From: Labilibaculum antarcticum
GTDB lineage: Bacteria; Bacteroidota; Bacteroidia; Bacteroidales; Marinifilaceae
Direction of reading: 5' to 3'
NCBI RefSeq assembly: GCF_002356295.1
Contig: NZ_AP018042.1
Location: forward strand, 4,744,361 to 4,808,360
Length of the DNA: 64,000 nt
Positions 17,018 to 33,884 of the stretch are shown here, in pieces; position 1 is the first letter of the stretch; each line of letters begins with the position of its first letter. The notes under the pieces are model-generated. The model made no database searches. It was not told the origin of the DNA and worked only from the letters and a program-made list of their open reading frames with translations. The translations under genes were made by a program, and so were the position numbers.

Positions 17018-19609
17018 TTAAAATTTATAGGAATAACTTACACTTGGAAGAAAAGAAAACAGACTAATCTGCTTTAAACTATATGTGGTGGAACCAAATT
17101 CGTTTTGATTTTCGCTAATGGAAACGTAGTTGGCATTTTTTCGGTTGTACACATTATTAATACTTAGGTTCCATGTTCTTATTCCATGTTTCTTAAATTT
17201 TCTGAAATTGATTGAAAAATCCATTCTGTGATAGTCTGGCAATCTAAATCCATTTCGATGTGAAAAAATGGGTACTGAAGATATACTTCCGGGGGAGTAA
17301 GGGGAAACCGCATTCACATTTGTTGAGGAAAGTGTTGCAGGTAAACCGCTTCCATACACCCAGGCTATAGAAAAATCGACCTTCTTACTTAATTTTTGAT
17401 TGAAAAGTACCGAAAAATCGTGACGGCGATCGTAAGGAGAAGCAAATGTTTTACCCGAATTTATTTCTGGATATTTTACATGCGATTTGGAAAGTGTATA
17501 GGCCATATTACCCGTAGTTTTGCCATTGGTTTTACTCAGGTTAAATTCCAATCCTTTGCTCCATGATTTTCCTGCTACAACCATCTTTTCCCAGTCGGCA
17601 CCTACGTTTTGGAAAAAGGAAGCATCGCTGAATTCCAAAACATTGCGGGATAATTTGTGATAGTATTCTGCTGAGAACTTTACTGATTTGGAAATGGAAT
17701 AATTCGTTCCACCGGTATATTGAAATGAGTCGATAGGCTTAATTTTGCTGGTTACCGGCAACCAAAGGTCGGTAGGCAGACTTAAAGAGCTGGTAGTGAC
17801 CAGATGAAGATATTGAGTCATTTGGGAAAAACTTCCCGTAAGGGTCCATTTTGGATTCAAATGATATTGTGTACTAAACCTAGGTTCGAGAGTAGAGTAG
17901 TAGGTTCCTTCAACAATAAAGCTACTCCAACGCGATCCTATATTTACAAGGAATTTTTTGCCGAATTGAATCTGGCATTCTCCAAATAAAATTATTTCTT
18001 TTGAACTGATAATTTGATCGTTAGATGTGTTTTGTTCGTCTTGATCGTTGTTTCGGTACAGTTCGCTGCCAGGTTTGGTGTGATGAAGTGAGGTTTCCAT
18101 TCCAAATTTCAAGTAATGTTTAGCATCAGGAATCCAGTCAAATTCTGTTTTAAGGGAGAAATCACGAATACCTGATCTAAATTGATAGTTGTAGTTTTCC
18201 TTAAAACTTTCATCTTCATTTTGTGTTGATCTCTTATCCTTAACTAAAAAAGTGTACCTGCTTAGTATCAAGGATGTATTGGCGAAAAGGTGATTGCTGT
18301 AAACATGATTCCAGCGAAGCGAATTTGTGAAATTGCCCCATCCAACCTTATTTTCAGTCTTCTCTTTTGATGTGGCTGTTCGTTCTTCCGTATTTTTCAC
18401 CTTAATTAAATCGCCACCCCAATAAGTGCTGAAGAAAATCTTATCGCGCTGAGAAAATTTATGCGTGAGTTTAAAATTTAAATCACCGAAATAGTATCCG
18501 GCGTTTATATCACTATCGGCTAAATCCAAAATACCATTTACCAGCAAATCGAGATAGGAGCGACGAACGGAAAGATTAAATGTTGTTTTGTCCTTTTTAA
18601 TTGGACCGTGCAAGTTAAACTTCGCAGTCAGCAAACCAATACTAAAATCGCCACCTAATTTTTTTGAATTCCCATCTTTCATTCTAATGTCAAGAACCGA
18701 GGAGACTCGGCCTCCGTAATGTGCCGGAAATCCACCTTTTATCAATTTTACGTGGTTGATTGCATCGGGATTAAATACAGAGAATAAACCCAGTAAATGA
18801 GAGGAATAGTAAACGGGAACATCATCGAGAAGAATTAAATTTTGAGAAGGGGAACCATTTCGAACGATAAATCCTCCAAGACCTTCGTTGGAGGTCTGAA
18901 CTCCGGGAAATTGAACTAAATTCTGAAATAGATCATTTTCTCCTAAAATACCTGAATTGCTAAAGCTTTCGGAGGTTAGCGAACTGGTACTTACAAATTG
19001 ATGATTGATGTTATTGCTCTTTTGATCGGCAAGCACTTTAATCTCATTAAGAATAGAATTAGGCTGTAGTGAGATATTAATGCTGGTATCTTGTTTTGGG
19101 TTTAGATCAATGATAATATTCTGATAGCCCACATAGGAAATTTGCAGTTGATGGGCTTTTTGATTGAGTGTAAAGCTGTAAAACCCAAAGTTATTGCTAA
19201 TTGTTCCGGTGTAATCTTCTAAATTGACAATACTCGCATTAATAAGAGATTCCCCTGTTTCAGAATCGGTTACGAATCCACTAATGCTGTATTTTCGTTC
19301 TGATGGAGGAATTCCAACTAAAAATATTTTATTGTCCCTATTGATGATTTTAAATGCTTTTGTATCAATAATCTCGTTAAGAAAGTATTTTAAACTTCCC
19401 TTTAAAGAGGGGAGTTTTATGTATTGATTTGTATTTAATTCGCTGGTGTAGCTAAATTCAACACCAGTTTGTGAACTTATTTCGTTCAATAACTCATGCA
19501 AAGGATAAGCAACATTCTCAAATTCTAATTGTTTAGACAAGACCGATTCCTGACAGAAAACTGAAGAGGAGAGGAGAAGGAAAGAAAATAGAATCAAAAA
19601 TTTTCTCAT
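17018..19609 (-). CDS. TonB-dependent transducer/receptor with STN and CarboxypepD_reg domains
   Basis: An outer-membrane active transporter that also signals to a FecR anti-sigma factor. I chose the ATG at 19609 because it begins a clean signal peptide (MRKFLILFSF...SVFCQ); the frame stays open 33 bp further upstream. In order: STN signalling domain (about residues 25-98), CarboxypepD_reg-like domain (105-185), plug (225-325, with FIVRNGSPSQNLILLDDVPV and GGFPAHYGGRVSSVLD), then a 22-strand-type barrel ending in the aromatic-terminated strand SVSYSYKF. The complete fecI-fecR-receptor set upstream indicates cell-surface signalling. Substrate is unknown; iron chelates are usual for such systems, but nothing here proves it. 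Confidence 0.92.
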   Translation of the reverse strand: MRKFLILFSFLLLSSSVFCQESVLSKQLEFENVAYPLHELLNEISSQTGVEFSYTSELNTNQYIKLPSLKGSLKYFLNEIIDTKAFKIINRDNKIFLVGIPPSERKYSISGFVTDSETGESLINASIVNLEDYTGTISNNFGFYSFTLNQKAHQLQISYVGYQNIIIDLNPKQDTSINISLQPNSILNEIKVLADQKSNNINHQFVSTSSLTSESFSNSGILGENDLFQNLVQFPGVQTSNEGLGGFIVRNGSPSQNLILLDDVPVYYSSHLLGLFSVFNPDAINHVKLIKGGFPAHYGGRVSSVLDIRMKDGNSKKLGGDFSIGLLTAKFNLHGPIKKDKTTFNLSVRRSYLDLLVNGILDLADSDINAGYYFGDLNFKLTHKFSQRDKIFFSTYWGGDLIKVKNTEERTATSKEKTENKVGWGNFTNSLRWNHVYSNHLFANTSLILSRYTFLVKDKRSTQNEDESFKENYNYQFRSGIRDFSLKTEFDWIPDAKHYLKFGMETSLHHTKPGSELYRNNDQDEQNTSNDQIISSKEIILFGECQIQFGKKFLVNIGSRWSSFIVEGTYYSTLEPRFSTQYHLNPKWTLTGSFSQMTQYLHLVTTSSLSLPTDLWLPVTSKIKPIDSFQYTGGTNYSISKSVKFSAEYYHKLSRNVLEFSDASFFQNVGADWEKMVVAGKSWSKGLEFNLSKTNGKTTGNMAYTLSKSHVKYPEINSGKTFASPYDRRHDFSVLFNQKLSKKVDFSIAWVYGSGLPATLSSTNVNAVSPYSPGSISSVPIFSHRNGFRLPDYHRMDFSINFRKFKKHGIRTWNLSINNVYNRKNANYVSISENQNEFGSTTYSLKQISLFSFLPSVSYSYKF

Positions 19610-19672
19610 GTAGAGTATAGGTTCAAAATGAATATCTGTCAAATTTACAATATGTTCTTATAAACGACAAAG

Positions 19673-19723
19673 GGAAGTCCGAAGACTTCCTTTTCATGAA
19701 TTGATATTACTCCTGATAGGAGT
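19673..19723. other. Two intercistronic hairpins before the TonB receptor gene
   Basis: GGAAGTC-N4-GACTTCC (19673-19690) and ACTCC-N5-GGAGT (19709-19723) lie between the 151-aa gene and the receptor gene. Neither is followed by a strong T-run on the minus strand, so they may be processing or attenuation points rather than full terminators. Confidence 0.45.
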
Positions 19724-19747
19724 TCTCTGTAAACTTATCGTTGAAAA

Positions 19748-20203
19748 TTAATTTACTTTCTTAAAAATATATCTGGTGATATAGATACCATTTCCATCGC
19801 CTTTACCACTGTCGCTTTCAACACCACTGGTCACAAAGGCAAGTTCCCACCCCTCAGCGCTAAGCGTGTTTATTTTTGAGGAAGTTAATGCATCGTTCGA
19901 AGCTATGTTTTGAAAATTGATACCTGCGATACTATAAAAATTCAATAATTTTGTTTCAGCAAATTTGTCAACTTTAGCATCGGAGCGCTTCACATCTTTC
20001 TGCTTGCTTTTTTTGCCGTCGGTTCTTTCTGTGGTAAAAGCTTCGGCATCAATACTAGCTTTTTCTTCAATTATTCGTGAACGTCCAATTCCCATAGGAA
20101 CTATTGATTCTACCGAAGTAATAACTTTGTAGTGAACGGTTTGAGCTTGTGATTCAAAAACAAATCCAAATGCGATAATCGCAATAAATAATAACTTCTT
20201 CAT
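19748..20203 (-). CDS. Small exported protein of unknown function
   Basis: Not recognised. It has 151 aa with a clear signal peptide (MKKLLFIAIIAFGF...SQAQT). The mature part is rich in charged residues (KKSKQKDVKRSDAK) and ends with a strand pattern GWELAFVTSGVES...GIYITRYIFKK, which recalls small DUF4177-like domains (GWELV...). It lies inside the sigma/FecR/TonB-receptor operon, so it may be an accessory of that surface system. Confidence 0.6.
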   Translation of the reverse strand: MKKLLFIAIIAFGFVFESQAQTVHYKVITSVESIVPMGIGRSRIIEEKASIDAEAFTTERTDGKKSKQKDVKRSDAKVDKFAETKLLNFYSIAGINFQNIASNDALTSSKINTLSAEGWELAFVTSGVESDSGKGDGNGIYITRYIFKKVN

Positions 20204-20254
20204 TTTACTTTTTTAATATTTGGTTGTAGGTTAATTGTTAATTTTTGTTTTGAA

Positions 20255-20947
20255 TTATTCGTAAAGATAAATTTGTCTTCTATCCTTCATGATAATGATT
20301 TTTTTACCACCTGCATATCCATCTTCTTCATCCAAACGATATCTTTTTTCCCTTTCTAAATAAATTGTTGCAGAGCCAGGATAAAGGTTTCTCATGTCAT
20401 CGGAGTCCAGATAAATGTATTCTGCATTTCTTCGGCTGGCAGTCTTACTAATAGTTGTTCCCGATTGCTCAATACTTATGGTAATACTCTCATCGTAACC
20501 CAAAGGCGAACCATTCCAGTACAATCTTCCCGATGAAAACAAATCAATTTCGTCTAAGTCATTAGGGATTGTTGTATAGGCAATGTCATCGGTATAAATG
20601 CTGTTCACAAAATCTCGATCCCAGCTTTTATTATAGATGAAATCAACATCAGCAAAACCTCTCGTTTTCCATGTATACTCATGAAATAGAGGCCAATAAT
20701 CGTGATGTCTTTCCCCATTAAATTTCACGTTCGAATCTTCAACCAATTTGATATGAACACCAGAGCTATTTCTTACCTTGAATTCTGCACTTGCAGTAGT
20801 TTCATTCTTATAGTTATCGTATACAAGCTTATAAGACTGATAAACCGGAGTGTCATAAGCCAAGTCGTTCGAATTAATTTTCTCACAACTAACAAAGCTG
20901 AATCCCGATAAAATGACGAATAGGTATGTAAATAATTGTCGTGTCAT
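20255..20947 (-). CDS. Hypothetical lipoprotein in the sigma/FecR operon
   Basis: Not recognised. The ATG at 20947 starts a lipoprotein signal (MTRQLFTYLFVILSGFSFVSC, lipobox Cys21); the frame is open to 21016, but the extra 23 residues have no signal-peptide character and overlap the upstream gene. The 230-aa product is rich in Tyr and Asp (DSDDMRNLYPGSATIYLERE). It lies 17 bp after the barrel protein gene, so it is probably co-transcribed and co-localised with it at the outer membrane. Confidence 0.62.
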   Translation of the reverse strand: MTRQLFTYLFVILSGFSFVSCEKINSNDLAYDTPVYQSYKLVYDNYKNETTASAEFKVRNSSGVHIKLVEDSNVKFNGERHHDYWPLFHEYTWKTRGFADVDFIYNKSWDRDFVNSIYTDDIAYTTIPNDLDEIDLFSSGRLYWNGSPLGYDESITISIEQSGTTISKTASRRNAEYIYLDSDDMRNLYPGSATIYLEREKRYRLDEEDGYAGGKKIIIMKDRRQIYLYE

Positions 20948-20964
20948 AATTTTGTGTTTTCGTT

Positions 20965-21498
20965 CTAGAATGCAATTCCAACTGTAAGTCCTGCTCTTAA
21001 TGTAAAGCCATCCCAATTATCGGTATCAAAATCTTCTTCAGCTCCCGATTTCGTATCCAGATTAATGCTTGTGTAACCCGGACCAAAAAACCATTCAAAG
21101 CTTACTCTTTTCTTAAAAATATACTGCTGACCAATGATCAAACCTGCACCAAATCCATTTAAGGTGGCTTCATCATTAGCATCATTCTCCAAATTATAAT
21201 TCAAATAACGAGCATAGGGTGCTACGAAAAATCCTTTTGGTGCTGGTGATTCTGAAAGATAAAAACGGTATTCCGGAGTAATTCCCCAACCTCTTACCTT
21301 GGTGTCGTCCCAGGTATTGCCTGTATACAAAAGACCCAATTGAATACTGCTGTTGTCGTTTAACTTGTGCTCTACAAAAAATGATCCTGTGCGCACTAAC
21401 GGACTTAGTAAATTGGCTTTTATAATTGTGTTTTGTGCTTTTGTAAAGCTCACACTAGCAAGCATGATAAAAGCGAATAATAGAAACTTGTTTTTCAT
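20965..21498 (-). CDS. Small outer-membrane beta-barrel protein (DUF3575-like)
   Basis: A 177-aa protein with a signal peptide (residues 1-21, ending TKAQ) and alternating strands typical of an eight-stranded barrel: IIKANLLSPLVRTGSFFVEHKL, GWGITPEYRFYL, GFFVAPYARYLNY, FGAGLIIGQQYIF and the last strand LRAGLTVGIAF ending in Phe. The opening NLLSPL..T.S.F.E. is like DUF3575. It follows fecR by 18 bp. It may assemble with the lipoprotein encoded next, but that is inference. Confidence 0.72.
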   Translation of the reverse strand: MKNKFLLFAFIMLASVSFTKAQNTIIKANLLSPLVRTGSFFVEHKLNDNSSIQLGLLYTGNTWDDTKVRGWGITPEYRFYLSESPAPKGFFVAPYARYLNYNLENDANDEATLNGFGAGLIIGQQYIFKKRVSFEWFFGPGYTSINLDTKSGAEEDFDTDNWDGFTLRAGLTVGIAF

Positions 21499-21516
21499 GT
21501 GATTTAGATTTTTGAC

Positions 21517-22494
21517 TTATTTCTTTTTGTCAGAAATAATTAGGTGATTTCCTTTTTTAACTGTTTTAACCCGTAAGTGCAATTCCAATTCAGTAATTAC
21601 CTCATCAATACTGGCGTTATCAAAATAACTGTTGAATTTTAAAGTGTCCAGTCTTTCACATTTGTTAGTAATTCTAACATTATAAAAATTCTCAAGGTAT
21701 TTAAACACTAATGGAATAGGCATGTCTTTAAATCGAAGGACTCCAGTTTTCCAAGAATCAAAATTAGGTTCATTGTTCACCGATTCAGTAATGAACGAAT
21801 CATATAAAATTCCTTTTTCTCCTTTTGTAAGGTAAATCACCTCTTGTGTTTCTTGATTTTTCAGGCTGACTTTTCCAGAATTAACACTTACAACAGTTGC
21901 TCCATCCATTTCATTTTTAACATTGAAGCTGGTACCAAGCACTTCAATTATTGCATTTCCGGATTTGATTATAAATGGTTTGGTCGGGTCGGGCTTAACT
22001 TGAAAGTAGGCTTCTCCTTCCATTTCTACATTTCTTACGTCTGAATTAAAATGTTTAGGATAAATAATTTTACTCTTCTTGTTTAAAAAGACCTCAGTTC
22101 CATCAGCCAACACAATTTTATCTTTTGTTTGCATGCTTTTGGTTTGAGCATATTTACCAAAACCTGGTGTTGTCTGATACAGATAAACCAAACTAAGAGA
22201 GAGTAAAACAAGAACAGTGGCAGCATATCGCATAAACAGGTTAACTTTTTTCAGTCGAACTGTTTTTCCTGATTTTGCTTTAATGATTTTCCAATCTGCT
22301 TCTTCATCAATTTTTTGGAATACCTCAATCTCTTTGCTCGATTTCCAAATCTTCTGCATTTTAAGAAAGTTCTCTTCATTTGCAGAATCAGCTTGCATCC
22401 ATTCCTGGAATTGTTGCTTGTCCTGATCAGATGATGTTCCTTCCAAAATGGAAAATAAAAATTGCTCGTCGATATGTTGATTGTTCTGTTTCAT
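21517..22494 (-). CDS. FecR-family anti-sigma factor
   Basis: An inner-membrane regulator that holds or activates the FecI-type sigma factor and reads the STN domain of the TonB receptor. The ATG at 22494 (MKQNNQHIDEQFLFSILEG) is chosen over one at 22551 because the longer form would overlap sigma by sequence of no family character and would cover the predicted promoter. It has a cytoplasmic DUF4880-like N-terminus, one membrane span (about residues 85-103, ATVLVLLSLSLVYLYQT), a FecR beta-domain (GTEVFLNKKSKIIYPKHF...GEAYFQV...VLGTSFNVK) and a C-terminal DUF4974 domain (FKDMPIPLVFKYLENFYNVRI), which is the STN-contact part. Confidence 0.92.
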   Translation of the reverse strand: MKQNNQHIDEQFLFSILEGTSSDQDKQQFQEWMQADSANEENFLKMQKIWKSSKEIEVFQKIDEEADWKIIKAKSGKTVRLKKVNLFMRYAATVLVLLSLSLVYLYQTTPGFGKYAQTKSMQTKDKIVLADGTEVFLNKKSKIIYPKHFNSDVRNVEMEGEAYFQVKPDPTKPFIIKSGNAIIEVLGTSFNVKNEMDGATVVSVNSGKVSLKNQETQEVIYLTKGEKGILYDSFITESVNNEPNFDSWKTGVLRFKDMPIPLVFKYLENFYNVRITNKCERLDTLKFNSYFDNASIDEVITELELHLRVKTVKKGNHLIISDKKK

Positions 22495-22503
22495 TTTGCT
22501 GTT

Positions 22504-22541
22504 TCTAATGGTAAGACAAATAAGAATGACTACACACGTAT
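22504..22541 (-). promoter_or_regulatory. Predicted sigma-FecI promoter in front of fecR
   Basis: On the minus strand: ATACGTGTG (22533-22541), 13 nt, TTGTCT (22514-22519), 4 nt, ATTAGAAA (22502-22509). The same three blocks with the same spacing lie before the sigma gene at 23201-23240. The GTC core of TTGTCT resembles ECF-type -10 elements. Confidence 0.65.
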
Positions 22542-22564
22542 TCGAATTCAAAAAAAATGAAAAA

Positions 22565-23140
22565 TTATTTTAATGCGTTCAGTAAGTAAATAATAAGAAG
22601 TGTTGCCAGCATTGGACCAATCTTTACTCGTAGGCTTTTCAAAGCTTTCGAGATTTGAGTTTCAACGGTTCTTTTCGAAATCCCTAACTGGTCGGCTATC
22701 TCCTGATTGGTAAATCCATCCATTCTATTCAGTTTAAATATTCGCTGACATTGTTCAGGCAATTCATCAATGGCTTTAAAAAGGGCATATTCCAATTCGG
22801 TTTGTTCTAAAATTTTATCTGCTTCCAAGCTAAAACCAGAACTTAAATATTTTATGTTTTCATGATGAGTTGCATGATTTTTTCTTTGCCGGATGGTATT
22901 TAAGCAAGCATTTCGCACCGAAGTATACAAATGTGCCTTGGCGGAAGTATGAATTTTCACAGATTCCCGATGATCGAACAGATGCACAAAAACATCTTGT
23001 ACAATTTCTCTTGAATCATCGAAATCGGACAGGAATTTATTGGCATAAGCCGTTAAAACAGAATAGTGCTCTTTAAATAGTTGCTCTATTCTTGTTTCCG
23101 TCAGGTTTTCGAATGCTTGGGTTTTTAGCGCGTGTTCCAT
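22565..23140 (-). CDS. ECF sigma factor, FecI-like
   Basis: An RNA polymerase sigma-70 factor of the extracytoplasmic function class, 191 aa. Region 2 (about residues 20-90) includes LTAYANKFLSDFDDSREIVQDVFVHLFDHRES; region 4 (about 125-180) includes LPEQCQRIFKLNRMDGFTNQEIADQLGISKRTVETQISKAL as a helix-turn-helix, quoted here in part. A hydrophobic tail (LATLLIIYLLNAL) ends the protein, as often in Bacteroidales FecI homologues. It leads the operon sigma, FecR, barrel, lipoprotein, exported protein, TonB receptor, DUF4249. It probably drives its own promoter (see the matching 40-bp elements). Confidence 0.93.
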   Translation of the reverse strand: MEHALKTQAFENLTETRIEQLFKEHYSVLTAYANKFLSDFDDSREIVQDVFVHLFDHRESVKIHTSAKAHLYTSVRNACLNTIRQRKNHATHHENIKYLSSGFSLEADKILEQTELEYALFKAIDELPEQCQRIFKLNRMDGFTNQEIADQLGISKRTVETQISKALKSLRVKIGPMLATLLIIYLLNALK

Positions 23141-28416: not shown

Positions 28417-28827
28417 TTATTTCTTGATGGTTTGATAGGCCTCCTTCAGCCAGTTTTTTAATTGCTGATCAAACTCAGATAACTCACCAATGGCAAGGCG
28501 ATGTAAAACTCGATTTCTGGATATTCTTTTGCATAGGTAAATTGGAAATTGATCTTCTTCCCGATGCAATTGAAACTCCAATACCAAATGATTCTTTTTT
28601 GTGTAAACCGACAAAAAGGTTGCGCCTATCTTAAACTGTATACAAGTTTTTAAGTAAATAATTTTGACGTTTTCGAATGTTGTAAGATAGGATAGGAGGA
28701 CTTCAAATAGTTCGGAAATATCTGAACTCGTTTTCTGTAAATGAGTCTCTTTATCAGTAATGTAGCAAGAATGATATTGGTTGGGGCCCAATAATGTTCT
28801 TTTACAATTTGGACAAATATAGGTCAT
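28417..28827 (-). CDS. DUF5655-like protein with a small zinc-binding start
   Basis: A 136-aa cytoplasmic protein that starts YICPNCKRTLLGPNQYHSC: two Cys in CPNC plus His and Cys in YHSC, a likely zinc site. The rest fits DUF5655 (FEVLLSYLTTFENVKIIYLKTCIQFKIGATF...FQLHREED...RISRNRVLHRLAIGELSEFD, in part), a presumed nuclease-fold or DNA-repair-associated family of unknown function. It lies 20 bp downstream of the STN-protein gene on the same strand, so it may be read through from that operon although its product looks unrelated. Confidence 0.75.
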   Translation of the reverse strand: MTYICPNCKRTLLGPNQYHSCYITDKETHLQKTSSDISELFEVLLSYLTTFENVKIIYLKTCIQFKIGATFLSVYTKKNHLVLEFQLHREEDQFPIYLCKRISRNRVLHRLAIGELSEFDQQLKNWLKEAYQTIKK

Positions 28828-28847: not shown

Positions 28848-30428
28848 TTATTTTGTAGTATCCAGAGCAACTTGCTGCATGCTGGTGCTAATTCTTTTAA
28901 TGGCTTCTTTAATATTATCTTCGGGCTTAATGAATGTCTGATTTCCCCAGAAATGGTTGTCGTAAGTAAGATTTTCGGTTGAAAGAATTGTTGTTGGCAC
29001 AATGGTTTCACGATGCTTAAATCGTCTCACATTAATGGTATCTAATTTTGTTGTTGCCATCTCGAATGAAGTTGAGAAAGTCTGTGAAAAGAACTTTTTT
29101 TTATTTTTAACCTTAAATTTTAAATTACCCAATGTGTGATTTAGAAAATATTTTCCGTTGATATTTCGATAGTTTACAGCATATTGAATATGTAGAGCTC
29201 TGACTTTAGTTTTTGCATTTGCTTTGCTAATGAATTGATTTGTTAATTCAGGCAATCGATCTTTATTATAGCCAAATTCGGCGCCAATAATGGCTAAACT
29301 TCTGGTTTCAACGATCAGCTTGCCTTCCAAAAGAGGCATATTCAAATTTGGTTTCGGCTGAAATTCAATGATGTAAACGGTTCGGTTGTTAAATGTACTG
29401 ATGTCGGATAAGTGGTAGTTGTATAAATGTATAAATTCAGGATTCAGGAATTCGGGTGGGTTTTGTACAATATCCAGCATCAAACAACCCTGAATACCTC
29501 CTTTTAATCGAAACGATATGGTATCCAAACGAGATACGTCATAAATTTTACGACTCTTGAATATTTTCACTTTATCGGTAAGCTCATTCTCCGAATACGG
29601 ATTTTTGTAGATATCTAAAACAGATTCGAGATAAATCATATACTTATTGTTTTTAAGTACCGATTCCCTATAAAAAGAGGTGAGGTTAGCCGCGTTTTGC
29701 GGATAGTTAATGTCTATTCTATTTATAGCAGCCTTTAGTATCGATCTCGGATCATTATTTCTAATTACAACCTCCTGAAGTGAAATGAAATCCTCCTTTA
29801 ATTGGATCTCAAGTTGATTATTTAAAATCTCAGAAACAGGTATTTCAAAATTTTTAAAGCCAACATAGGAAACAACAAGTGTGTCTTTACTATTTTCCGA
29901 TGAAAGAGTGAGCGCAAATTCACCATCCTGATTGCTAATTGTACCAACATGCTTGCCTCGAATACCAATACTCGCATAGGGCAAGGACATTTTAGCTGAT
30001 TGATTTGTTACTTTGCCACTAATATTTCGGTACGAAATGTAAGGAATAATGCTTGAGGTGACAGGTTCGTTTGTTCTGTATAAGGCGGGTACAATAATGA
30101 TATGCCTATTAACTACCTGGAATGTAAGACTGGTATCTTGAATTATTTTCCGCAATAATACTTCGAATTCAATATCATTAGCTTTAAGACTAAGCTTTTC
30201 GTTATTTGTAAATAAATCGGAATTATAGGTGAAATAGCAGTTGTTTTTTGCCGCAAGAGAATCCAATGCATCATTAATACTTAGTTCTGTGATATCAATT
30301 GAAATCTTATTTTGTAAGAGTGATTCCTGAGCCGAAAGGGTAGATTGAGCAAAGCATATCAAAAGCACAAGCAATGCATAAGAAAGCTTGCTTCGTACTG
30401 TTTTTTGATATGTTTTTCTGCTTTTCAT
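28848..30428 (-). CDS. STN + CarboxypepD_reg protein without a beta-barrel
   Basis: A 526-aa exported protein with a signal peptide (about residues 1-34), an STN domain (about 40-112: ISIDITELSINDALDSLAAK, then YFTYNSDLF), a CarboxypepD_reg beta-sandwich (133-215: ISGKVTNQSAKMSLPYASIG...VSYVGFKNFEIPV, in part) and a 310-residue C-terminal region shared with the gene at 32315-33613 (SFYRES...NNKYMIYLESV, IYDVSRLDTISFRLKGG). STN domains normally sit on TonB-dependent barrels and touch FecR. Here there is no plug or barrel. Encoded 12 bp after fecR in one operon with a sigma factor, it probably acts as a periplasmic or cell-surface signal input for that FecR. Confidence 0.85.
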   Translation of the reverse strand: MKSRKTYQKTVRSKLSYALLVLLICFAQSTLSAQESLLQNKISIDITELSINDALDSLAAKNNCYFTYNSDLFTNNEKLSLKANDIEFEVLLRKIIQDTSLTFQVVNRHIIIVPALYRTNEPVTSSIIPYISYRNISGKVTNQSAKMSLPYASIGIRGKHVGTISNQDGEFALTLSSENSKDTLVVSYVGFKNFEIPVSEILNNQLEIQLKEDFISLQEVVIRNNDPRSILKAAINRIDINYPQNAANLTSFYRESVLKNNKYMIYLESVLDIYKNPYSENELTDKVKIFKSRKIYDVSRLDTISFRLKGGIQGCLMLDIVQNPPEFLNPEFIHLYNYHLSDISTFNNRTVYIIEFQPKPNLNMPLLEGKLIVETRSLAIIGAEFGYNKDRLPELTNQFISKANAKTKVRALHIQYAVNYRNINGKYFLNHTLGNLKFKVKNKKKFFSQTFSTSFEMATTKLDTINVRRFKHRETIVPTTILSTENLTYDNHFWGNQTFIKPEDNIKEAIKRISTSMQQVALDTTK

Positions 30429-30440
30429 CCGGCAAGTGAA

Positions 30441-31463
30441 TTACTTAAGTTCTTTTTTCAGTATAATTTGATTACCATTCTTTTCGTAGCTTAAGTTATG
30501 TGGGCGACATAAGTTTTCCAGAACATCAGTAAGAGGTGTTTGGTTGAATGATGTTGTGATTGGTAAATTCTGAATTGCTGTGTCGTTGAATTCAATATTA
30601 ACCTGATAAGTTCGATTTATTACTTTGGCTACATCTTGTAAACTCATCGCTTTAAAAACCATTAAATGAGTTTTCCAGGAGAGGTAATTTTCATCTTTTT
30701 GTATGGTTTTCTCAAGTAAATCATCTTGTAATATTCCAAAATCACCTTTTTCAAGAATAATTTTATTATTTGGTTCTTTTGCAAGTGAGAATTGAACTTT
30801 ACCTGTTTCAACCAGAACTTCCACATGCTTATTGGAAGCATTCACATTGAAGGATGTCCCCAAAACTCTAACTTCTGCATTCCCAACTGAAATAATGAAT
30901 GGTTTGGCAGGATTCTTAGTAATGGTAAAAAATGCTTCACCAGTTAGTTTTACCCGTCTTTCATTTCCCGAAAACGACTTCTCGTAAACCAATTCCGATT
31001 TGCCATTCAGGTTTACGATGGAACCATCAGCCAAAGTTATCGATTTGCCACTTTCATATAATTCAGATGAGATACTTTGGTAAGGAGCAAGCTTATCTGT
31101 GTAGATATGGTATGATGCTAATCCAAGACCAATGGTAATCACCAACATGGCTGCAATCTGTATCAACGTCCTGGTGTTTTGGAACGAAAACAGAGGAACT
31201 GCCTTTAGGGTATTATTCTTTTTAGAATTGCTTAAATTCGATTTTACTGCCGACCAAGCCGCATCAACATTAAATAGTTGTTGAACTTTGTTAACCTCTT
31301 GAATTAGGCCCAAATCTTTATTGGATGCAGAAACAATTTCGGCATACTCAGGATTGGAATCAATCAACTTTTCAAATGTCAATTTTTCCTCTGCGCTCAT
31401 TTCTCCACTTAGATATTTCGAAATGATTTCCCACTCAATTTTATGTGATGTATTTTTTTTCAT
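30441..31463 (-). CDS. FecR-family anti-sigma factor (second system)
   Basis: A 340-aa membrane regulator. The N-terminal cytoplasmic helix bundle (ISKYLSGEMSAEEKLTFEKL) is the sigma-contact region. One membrane span is at about residues 95-117 (TLIQIAAMLVITIGLGLASY). The FecR beta-domain (SITLADGSIVNLNGKSELVY...GEAFFTITKNPAKPFIISVGN) and a DUF4974 end (FKAMSLQDVAKVINRTYQVNIEF) follow. It lies 5 bp from the sigma gene and 12 bp from the STN protein gene, so the three form a tight operon. Confidence 0.93.
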   Translation of the reverse strand: MKKNTSHKIEWEIISKYLSGEMSAEEKLTFEKLIDSNPEYAEIVSASNKDLGLIQEVNKVQQLFNVDAAWSAVKSNLSNSKKNNTLKAVPLFSFQNTRTLIQIAAMLVITIGLGLASYHIYTDKLAPYQSISSELYESGKSITLADGSIVNLNGKSELVYEKSFSGNERRVKLTGEAFFTITKNPAKPFIISVGNAEVRVLGTSFNVNASNKHVEVLVETGKVQFSLAKEPNNKIILEKGDFGILQDDLLEKTIQKDENYLSWKTHLMVFKAMSLQDVAKVINRTYQVNIEFNDTAIQNLPITTSFNQTPLTDVLENLCRPHNLSYEKNGNQIILKKELK

Positions 31464-31468
31464 TTTGT

Positions 31469-32023
31469 TTATAGCACAATAATTCCAATGTAATCTTTTA
31501 AACTTTTCCGGAAGGCTTTTAAGGCCTTTCCCATATTCGCTTCAACGGTCTTTACCGAAATAGATAATTTGTCGGCAATTTCCTGATATTTTAGACCTTC
31601 AAACCGACTCATTTTAAATATTTGACTGCAACGATCGGGTAAATTCGTAAGAGTTCTATTTACAATATTATGAATGTCTTTTTCTTCTACCGAATCTATT
31701 GGTAATGAGTTCTCTTGTTTGTTGTTTTTAATGTATTCTTGGTACTTTTTTTTTACACCTCTTTTTCGCAATACCTGCAGACTATTAAAATAAGTTGCCT
31801 TGTAAAGGTACGCTTTTAATGAAGTGTGTATTTTTAAGGTTTTTCTGTTTTCCCATAACTGACAAAACAATTCCTGAACAATTTCTTCTGATTGATTTGT
31901 GTCTCTCACAAACCGCAGAGCGTAATGACATAGTAAAGGGTAATATTCTCTGAATAACTTTTCAAACTCCTGTAAGTTACCACTTTGTATGTTCTTAAGT
32001 ATCGTATCTGTATCTTCCGACAT
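31469..32023 (-). CDS. ECF sigma factor (second system)
   Basis: A 184-aa FecI-like sigma factor. Region 2 is seen in LFREYYPLLCHYALRFVRDTNQSEEIVQELFCQLWENRKT (in part) and region 4 in LPDRCSQIFKMSRFEGLKYQEIADKLSISVKTVEANMGKALKAF (in part). It begins the operon with fecR and the barrel-less STN protein. Unlike the first sigma system, its upstream region has no copy of the 40-bp promoter element, so the two circuits are probably insulated. Confidence 0.93.
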   Translation of the reverse strand: MSEDTDTILKNIQSGNLQEFEKLFREYYPLLCHYALRFVRDTNQSEEIVQELFCQLWENRKTLKIHTSLKAYLYKATYFNSLQVLRKRGVKKKYQEYIKNNKQENSLPIDSVEEKDIHNIVNRTLTNLPDRCSQIFKMSRFEGLKYQEIADKLSISVKTVEANMGKALKAFRKSLKDYIGIIVL

Positions 32024-32186
32024 TTTAGTATCTCTTCCTGTGTTTTAAAAAGCTTGTTACACTTTCTAAGTTAGGATTTTTCAATCAGTAGAGGAAAGAT
32101 CTTCAATATTATTGTTGATATTTTCATTATAAAAATGGCAATAATTTAGATTTTTCTTTTCTCGATAATTGATTCCTGTATGGATG

Positions 32187-32246
32187 AAAAGAACCGTTCT
32201 TAAATTTTTCATGTTTCCCCAAGCATGAGTGAACGGTTCTTTTCTG
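32187..32246 (-). terminator. Long terminator hairpin downstream of the paralogue gene
   Basis: Inverted repeat AAAAGAACCGTTC / GAACGGTTCTTTT (32187-32199 and 32231-32243) with a second small hairpin (CATG...CATG) in the loop. It ends the minus-strand gene at 32315-33613 and separates it from the sigma operon. Confidence 0.82.
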
Positions 32247-32314
32247 GTTTTGAATTCAGTGGGTAAAGGTTTAAAAGATAACTAACTCCTGTATGTTCTG
32301 AATTCAATATTTCA

Positions 32315-33613
32315 TTATTTCATTTTCCTCTTCAGTTTTCTAATTGCTGATTCGATCGATTGATCTGGTTCAATTGTATTATATGCTCCCCAGAAATTGG
32401 CGTCAGCAAAGTTGCTTACTTCTTCAACCATTACCTGATTTGCTTTAAATTTATTATCTCTTTTAAAGCGTACAATATTTTGTTCTTCGCGGTCGGTAAT
32501 AGCAATTTCGGTCATTGCAGTATAGTTAGTATTGAAAAGCTTGCGTTTCCAGTTGCATTTAAAATTAATTTCTCCTCTTGCATAATTGAAATACCATTTA
32601 CCATCCTTTTCGTGATAGTTAACAAAGTAATCGGCTGAGGTAGGAGTTACTTTTACACCTGCAGGTTTACGTTTAATAAACATGCGAGTTGCTTCCTCTT
32701 CATTACTTAGGTTCAAGCTAAATTTTGCACTTGCTAAGGCTAAATTTGTTGATTCAACATACAGTAATCCATAATACAGTGGAATATCAATGTTTTCTTT
32801 TTGTTTGAATTCAATTACGTAATGAATTTTGTCGTTAATCTTAGTAATTGATTTAATTGAAAAATTATAGTTGTCGATGAAGTCTTCTGAAAGCAAATTG
32901 TAAGGATTTTTCACAACATCTAAAAGTAGTGATGTGTATGGTCCGCCTTGCAATTTGAAAAGTAGTGTATCCATTTTCTTTACATCCTGACTTTTACGGC
33001 CTTTGTAAATTTGAATCTGGTCATCTCTCATTTGTCTGTAACCCGATTTATGAACATTTACAACAGCTTCAGAAATAGCCACGTAAGAACGGTTTTTCTT
33101 CACTGTTTCGCGATAGAAACCTTTCATCATATTTGGTTCTGTAGAATAGTTCTGAGATACTTTAGCCAAAATACTTTTCACCAAAAATAAAGGATCTAAT
33201 GGGTAAATGTTAATTTGATCCAACGGAATTGTAACCGATTCCAGTTTAAAGATATTTCTCTTTTCCTTTAACGAATTAATAGGGATTTCGAGATTTTTGT
33301 ATCCGATATAAGTAACTTCAATTTTACTGACAGGAAGATCTTTGGCGATTTTTAAAAGAAATTCTCCATCATTGTTCGATACTGTAGCAACATTAACACC
33401 TTTTACAGTTATTGTTGCGAACATTAGAGGTTCGTTAGTGTTTGCATCCTGAATCTTCCCTTTATAAACATCGTATTTTAAAGTGTCGATTACTTGTTGC
33501 ACTTTGTTTTTTTCTTTACTGATATTTCCCTCTGCGGCCATTACATTGCTAAAAGAGAAAAACAAAAAAGCAGAAAGAATAATTGCGAAATAAAATCTAA
33601 TTTTTGTTTTCAT
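32315..33613 (-). CDS. CarboxypepD_reg protein, paralogue lacking STN
   Basis: A 432-aa exported protein (signal peptide about residues 1-26, ending NVMAA). It has a CarboxypepD_reg domain (about 50-135: YKGKIQDANTNEPLMFATIT...VTYIGYKNLEIPI, in part) and a 290-residue C-terminal region that matches the STN protein at 28848-30428 along its length: GFYRETVKKNRSYVAISEAV, IYKGRKSQDVKKMDTLLFKL and LLLDVVKNPYNLL align to FYRES, IFKSRKIYDVSRLDT and LMLDIVQNPPEFL. It is a paralogue without the STN domain. It has its own terminator, so it is transcribed apart from the sigma operon, though on the same strand and just upstream. Confidence 0.8.
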   Translation of the reverse strand: MKTKIRFYFAIILSAFLFFSFSNVMAAEGNISKEKNKVQQVIDTLKYDVYKGKIQDANTNEPLMFATITVKGVNVATVSNNDGEFLLKIAKDLPVSKIEVTYIGYKNLEIPINSLKEKRNIFKLESVTIPLDQINIYPLDPLFLVKSILAKVSQNYSTEPNMMKGFYRETVKKNRSYVAISEAVVNVHKSGYRQMRDDQIQIYKGRKSQDVKKMDTLLFKLQGGPYTSLLLDVVKNPYNLLSEDFIDNYNFSIKSITKINDKIHYVIEFKQKENIDIPLYYGLLYVESTNLALASAKFSLNLSNEEEATRMFIKRKPAGVKVTPTSADYFVNYHEKDGKWYFNYARGEINFKCNWKRKLFNTNYTAMTEIAITDREEQNIVRFKRDNKFKANQVMVEEVSNFADANFWGAYNTIEPDQSIESAIRKLKRKMK

Positions 33614-33884
33614 GGCAATATGTTTTATTTAATAATAGATTTAATAGTTTGAGAAAACCGATCGTGTATTTTCTTGTCTCTACTACTATGATGCATGAAA
33701 GGAATTATACCCTATCCGTTTTTTCACTTTTTTTATTGAAATGGATATTTTCTAATTGTAGAGCCTATTTTTTTACATCCTTAATATGTCCTATATTTAT
33801 ATGAAATCAAATAAATAGCTTCTTAGCGATTCTATTTACATCAGAAAAGTAACCTGAAGAATTGAATAGTAACAAGTTAAGTTT

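Follow-up and report, generated by a model that had tools for sequence, protein, structure and literature searches.

A FecR-type circuit of Labilibaculum antarcticum with a barrel-less STN protein as candidate sensor and its STN-less paralogue as probable target

FecR signalling is mainly seen as a means by which transporters report their cargo. We analysed a locus of Labilibaculum antarcticum in which the STN-bearing protein of a sigma/anti-sigma operon is not a transporter. It lies in a 64,000-nucleotide stretch of contig NZ_AP018042.1 (positions 4,744,361 to 4,808,360; the whole of this stretch is called the window, and coordinates are window coordinates unless a locus is named). Four genes on the minus strand are transcribed in the order PAR, extracytoplasmic function (ECF) sigma factor, FecR-type anti-sigma factor and STNp, where STNp is the STN protein and PAR is its paralogue without STN. 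Their coordinates and reading frames, proposed in an initial annotation made from the sequence alone, were correct. The features of the locus are:

33687-33714, minus strand: ECF-type promoter-like site TAGGGTATAATTCCTTTCATGCATCATA, 101 nt upstream of the PAR start codon
32315-33613, minus strand: PAR, 432 amino acids (aa), exported; CarboxypepD_reg and C-terminal domain, without STN
32186-32244, minus strand: hairpin between PAR and sigma, -22.4 kcal/mol, z -4.73; partial terminator or attenuator
31469-32023, minus strand: ECF sigma factor, Bacteroidota FecI-like (TIGR02985, 170.7 bits against a cutoff of 126.4)
30441-31463, minus strand: FecR-type anti-sigma factor, PF04773 (FecR) and PF16344 (FecR_C)
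30459-30662, minus strand: FecR_C, the STN-like C-terminal subdomain of FecR (PF16344 at residues 268-335 and a weak STN match)
28848-30428, minus strand: STNp, 526 aa, exported; STN, CarboxypepD_reg and C-terminal domain
30087-30308, minus strand: STN domain of STNp (PF07660), residues 41-114 in the model
29763-30023, minus strand: CarboxypepD_reg_2 / SusC N-terminal-extension-like domain of STNp (PF13715)
28851-29762, minus strand: C-terminal domain of STNp, LolA/RseB-like by remote structure match

The sigma and FecR genes are 5 nt apart and the FecR and STNp genes 12 nt apart, while a gap of 291 nt between PAR and sigma contains the hairpin. The initial annotation had given PAR a terminator of its own. 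The hairpin (32244-32186) is indeed strong, but its U-run is short and the counterpart stretch of Marinifilum, when folded, was no better than its shuffles; we therefore describe it as a partial terminator or attenuator. A generic terminator scan did not call it, probably because of the size of its loop.

Pfam searches identified STN at residues 66-115 of STNp (31.6 bits, cutoff 28.4) and CarbopepD_reg_2 at residues 136-222, and CarbopepD_reg_2 alone in PAR. PAR is thus STNp minus the STN domain, as first proposed, and the C-terminal domains of the two proteins are 33% identical. That domain had been annotated as unknown, and in STNp its 304 residues matched no Pfam model even at E<=10. Neither Pfam nor NCBIfam gave a plug or barrel match in STNp, and TIGR04056 (SusC/RagA, cutoff 368) was matched over its first ~80 model positions only, at 56.6 and 40.1 bits. 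Both STNp and PAR have a signal peptide, inspection of the sequences by eye found neither a lipobox nor a C-terminal aromatic beta-signal in either, and both proteins look periplasmic. The description of the locus as surface signalling with a non-transporter input therefore stands in its second half, whereas "surface" is probably a misnomer. Labilibaculum holds the closest relatives of STNp, at 69-84% identity. Among the STN-bearing proteins found in the genome STNp alone is below barrel length; the five others are SusC/RagA-type proteins of 1124-1252 aa, each with a FecR gene nearby. In the phylum sample, the combination of STN and CarboxypepD_reg occurred on proteins of 800 aa or longer in 80 of the 83 among the matches listed.

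Structure prediction gave a mean pLDDT (predicted local distance difference test) of 75.9 for full-length STNp and a predicted template modelling score of 0.80 for the C-terminal domain alone (AlphaFold2). In the full-length model the STN domain resembles the PupA signalling domain (2a02; template modelling (TM) score 0.71) and the middle domain resembles the N-terminal extension of SusCdex (9hfj; TM 0.85). When the C-terminal domain was compared with the PDB by Foldseek, the top five matches were a DUF1329 protein, a LolA-superfamily protein, two Porphyromonas LolA3 chains and E. coli RseB, with probabilities of 0.95-1.00 and E-values of 2.5e-7 to 1e-3 but TM-scores of just 0.26-0.36. The outer-membrane protein barrels OmpF and NalP were far down the ranking (probability 0.13-0.23). 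A Lol/RseB-like half-barrel is the likeliest reading of these models, and a tentative one; a missed barrel was rejected, as the models match Lol/RseB-like folds rather than barrels. A PDB sequence search with the domain returned no relative, only chance matches, mostly to kinases. PF18939 (DUF5686), at its gathering score and over its full length, matched neither the STNp nor the PAR C-terminal domain. Intermediate proteins nevertheless tie the domain to DUF5686 by sequence: the distant relatives L070 and L083 match PF18939 positions ~122-189, and L034 is a DUF5686 protein.

With the C-terminal domain as the sole query, we found it in 90 of the 295 genomes searched within the order. Reading-frame lengths were bimodal (422-488 and 504-583 aa, with one exception of 373 aa). 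Of the 82 genomes that were parsed from this listing, 48 have a long form preceded, 2.1-3.2 kb upstream and in the same orientation, by a short form. Whole cassettes were retrieved from 40 of these 48, and every one had the identical order PAR-sigma-FecR-STNp. The neighbourhood comparison suggested by the initial annotation thus found a recurring cassette, one not peculiar to a single genome; it is also present in Labilibaculum, Marinifilum, Dysgonomonas, a Prevotella-labelled metagenome-assembled genome and further genera. The recurrence of the four genes together is more than chance. PAR is no bystander but heads the ancestral cassette; it probably also headed the ancestral operon, because some relatives have just ~10-40 nt between PAR and sigma.

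In the tree, nearly all STNp proteins fell into one clade (39 rows), with 4 divergent STNp just outside, and all PAR proteins into another (51 rows, support 100). Because the two clades are separate and their host grouping is much alike, the tree points to one ancient duplication, at which STN was gained or lost; afterwards the two forms were inherited jointly and the regulatory half was lost repeatedly. Distant STN-less outgroup relatives suggest that the STN-less form is the older, with a root support of just 90 and long outgroup branches. Genomes with PAR only are dispersed across the PAR tree, so that at least 6 changes of the circuit are needed. We rejected the idea that STNp is a degenerate relic of a transporter, since its C-terminal domain has been conserved within an old clade that was inherited separately.

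Alignment of the region upstream of PAR (alignment A3) revealed one block far better conserved than its flanks, TAGGGT-N16-ATCNTA, which was found again in distant genera. The form TAGGGTW-N15-ATCNTA has a single perfect match in the closed 5.72 Mb genome, namely the one that precedes PAR, and the window site scored 38.9 bits against a maximum of 6.8 bits for shuffled sequences. The strict pattern was present in 43 of 59 cassettes and another 13 outscored every shuffled sequence; with two cassettes cut by contig ends included, the site was upstream of PAR in 58 of 61. By comparison, none of the 14 loci that retain PAR but have lost the circuit has the site. (L191 and L195, which seemed to be PAR-only loci with a site, are really the cassettes cut by contig ends.) The association of site and circuit gave a Fisher p of 1e-12 with kinship ignored, and in phylogenetically independent pairs the site tracked the circuit in 5 of 5 (sign test p 0.06, few pairs). 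Where PAR does not adjoin the circuit, the site is mostly upstream of sigma or FecR. Conservation of the site at PAR and its loss together with the circuit are good evidence, although not proof, that the neighbouring sigma reads it, with PAR as the main target. Of the roles first considered for the paralogue, that of regulated target is thus well supported, at the level of genome comparison, by a dedicated promoter site, whereas that of a competitor for FecR is unlikely because PAR lacks STN.

The FecR protein aligned with PupR (6ovk_R) at profile positions 131-324 (E 2.2e-8), i.e. it has a PupR-type periplasmic region. PupR has been solved in complex with the STN domain of PupB (6OVK; PMC7186176). 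In FoxA/FoxR the signalling domain, cleaved off the receptor, binds the anti-sigma factor without inducer and shields it from proteolysis (PMC11637429); anti-sigma factors can therefore be bound and protected by free STN domains of transducers (PMC11637429, PMC7186176). These two precedents make a soluble STN protein mechanistically plausible, and a putative contact between STNp and FecR is suggested by homology and by the invariant gene pairing. FecR itself varies in length: the Dysgonomonas-type protein (alignment A2, rows L030-L032) is ~280 aa long against 340 aa in the window, and most of the N-terminal cytoplasmic region present in the latter is missing from it.

We favour, as the more probable account, a FecR-type circuit in which STNp is a soluble periplasmic sensor and the main output is its STN-less twin PAR. 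The sensor would have arisen when an STN was grafted onto a duplicate of this effector. STNp would be exported by its cleavable signal peptide and remain in the periplasm, where at rest its STN domain would sit on the periplasmic part of FecR and guard FecR from proteolysis, as in FoxA/FoxR and PupB/PupR. The LolA/RseB-like C-terminal domain would sense a ligand or a state of the envelope, probably a hydrophobic one; binding would alter or break the STN-FecR contact, FecR would be degraded and sigma would be freed. Sigma would then act at TAGGGT-N16-ATCNTA to raise PAR and, in most relatives, its own operon as well by read-through. PAR, with the same C-terminal domain, could bind the same ligand as a chaperone, carrier or sink and so close a feedback loop. 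The model joins the protection seen in FoxA/FoxR and PupB/PupR with the lipid sensing of MucB, an RseB-family protein that guards MucA and releases it on lipid binding (PMC7400510). The circuit falls within FecR signalling and is no new category. If the model is true, an ancient, widespread and transporter-less circuit widens the range of what very numerous sigma/anti-sigma pairs can sense. Its sensor would also be a duplicate of its one apparent target, in a small testable system of four genes and one promoter site, and natural relatives that keep the effector but not the circuit add to its testability.

Variant circuits were found in several genomes. In three of them (G516, G357 and G444) a gene for a protein with STN, a retropepsin-like aspartyl protease and PDZ lies between FecR and STNp, and in four others (G349, G437, G512 and G568) ABC-2 exporter genes replace PAR directly upstream of sigma; the exporter genes were Pfam-checked for G349 and G512 and assigned by gene length and position for G437 and G568. 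The features are:

L202:3659-5218, L203:3588-5156 and L204:1623-3188: STN, retropepsin-like aspartyl protease and PDZ protein (domains read in the G516 copy)
L221:3355-5730, L225:3324-5612, L224 and L226: ABC-2 exporter permease and ATPase genes upstream of sigma-FecR-STNp

STN-less relatives of the retropepsin-PDZ protein (~405-450 aa) are common in the order, and the form with STN was seen only in the three genomes. By its domain order the protein is a second example, within a FecR locus, of STN grafted onto a periplasmic protein that is not a barrel, and it could be a protease delivered by STN to act on FecR. A more far-reaching idea, which we consider possible but doubtful, is that an RseB-like sensor of lipids or lipoproteins entered FecR signalling when a lipid-binding effector was duplicated and one copy gained STN, becoming a FecR-bound sensor of the effector's own ligand, and that such grafting is general in Bacteroidota. 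If so, STN grafting would be a general route in the phylum for plugging any periplasmic protein into a sigma/anti-sigma circuit.

Several further observations concern the surroundings of the cassette. A DUF5655 gene (28417-28827) lies 20 nt downstream of STNp, a position in which it was seen only in Labilibaculum and Marinifilum loci, and it is probably outside the cassette. The window contains a second sigma-FecR locus (17018-23140) with a DUF3575 protein, an unknown 253-aa protein and an 874-aa protein with CarboxypepD_reg and a plug; its sigma and FecR genes are kept beside the PAR-STNp locus in Labilibaculum. In a SusC-type STN circuit (L120; G000:C1:78030-78057) a copy of the promoter-like site with one mismatch precedes the FecR gene by 20 nt, and a 22-bit site at 1.82 Mb, inside coding sequence, was taken as chance. 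In Parabacteroides merdae, according to a published RNA-seq table, just 15 genes were more than four-fold down on sialic acid (PMC12893687). NQ542_RS07340 (carboxypeptidase-like regulatory) and NQ542_RS07355 (STN and carboxypeptidase regulatory-like) are among them, both ~4-fold down; they are three tags apart, which is the PAR-STNp spacing, with orthology not confirmed (PMC12893687).

Four results weigh against the circuit that we favour. The low TM-scores make the likeness to LolA and RseB remote at best. Co-variation of STN and FecR is weak, with a partial rank correlation of 0.23 (0.00 for the cytoplasmic part of FecR), and we set this distance-correlation signal aside as evidence of contact because it is too weak. 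Alignment of the region upstream of the sigma operon in Labilibaculum and Marinifilum (alignment A4) did not contain the PAR-type site, and autoregulation is therefore unproven in these genera. Finally, a similar site of 22.5 bits lies near another sigma-FecR locus of the same genome, so that related ECF sigmas may have the site in common. This last result would also suit a reading in which the site belongs to another sigma, PAR is not a target of its neighbour and the gene order is inherited linkage. We regard that as very improbable, given that site and circuit were lost together in independent lineages and that, without an adjoining PAR, the site is found at sigma or FecR.

Two other explanations accept a signalling role for STNp. 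It might be a detachable subunit, with STN and CarboxypepD_reg as the N-terminal portion of a split TonB-dependent receptor. Its C-terminal domain would dock on a barrel encoded elsewhere, and this barrel would do the sensing at the surface. The first 222 residues of STNp are laid out as a SusC N-terminal extension, and the same domain pair occurs in the phylum on proteins of >800 aa in nearly all of the matches listed, as given above (80/83). However, the cassette is never accompanied by a barrel gene, and PAR, which shares the C-terminal domain but lacks STN, is also found on its own; the split receptor is unlikely. We give about the same low credence to a general envelope-stress response, in which STNp would report mislocalised lipoproteins or lipids in the manner of RseB/MucB and PAR would be one of several targets. 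The best fold matches include RseB and LolA3, MucB senses lipid to release MucA (PMC7400510), and some variants carry ABC-2 exporter genes immediately before sigma; but the fold match is weak, the genome has a single perfect promoter site, and the sole published expression hint concerns growth on sialic acid rather than stress, in genes of unconfirmed orthology (PMC12893687).

Among known systems, the SusC/RagA TonB-dependent transporters with STN share the N-terminal order of STN and CarboxypepD_reg, but STNp has neither plug nor barrel and is half as long. The DUF5686 (PF18939) proteins of Bacteroidota likewise carry CarboxypepD_reg ahead of a region that is related to the C-terminal domain; they run on for another 300-400 residues where STNp and PAR end, and the DUF5686 protein L034 has no STN. 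RefSeq has an automatic name for the same architecture, "STN and carboxypeptidase regulatory-like domain-containing protein", which appears, as a name only, in PMC12893687. Our literature search on the proteins so named turned up no described function or circuit, and one on DUF5686 and barrel-less STN systems turned up no such system.

RseA-RseB and MucA-MucB, with sigma-E and AlgU, offer a soluble periplasmic guard of an anti-sigma factor, whose fold is tentatively LolA-like here. They differ in that the anti-sigma factor of the present locus is of the FecR type and the contact would be between STN domains, RseB having none, and in that here the sensing domain is common to the sensor and the regulated effector. 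The cell-surface signalling systems FecI-FecR-FecA, PupI-PupR-PupB and FoxI-FoxR-FoxA likewise combine an ECF sigma, a FecR anti-sigma factor with an STN-like end, STN on a third protein and a target beside the regulator. Unlike them, the circuit described here has an STN protein without plug or barrel and involves no transporter, and its probable target is the STN-less paralogue of its own sensor.

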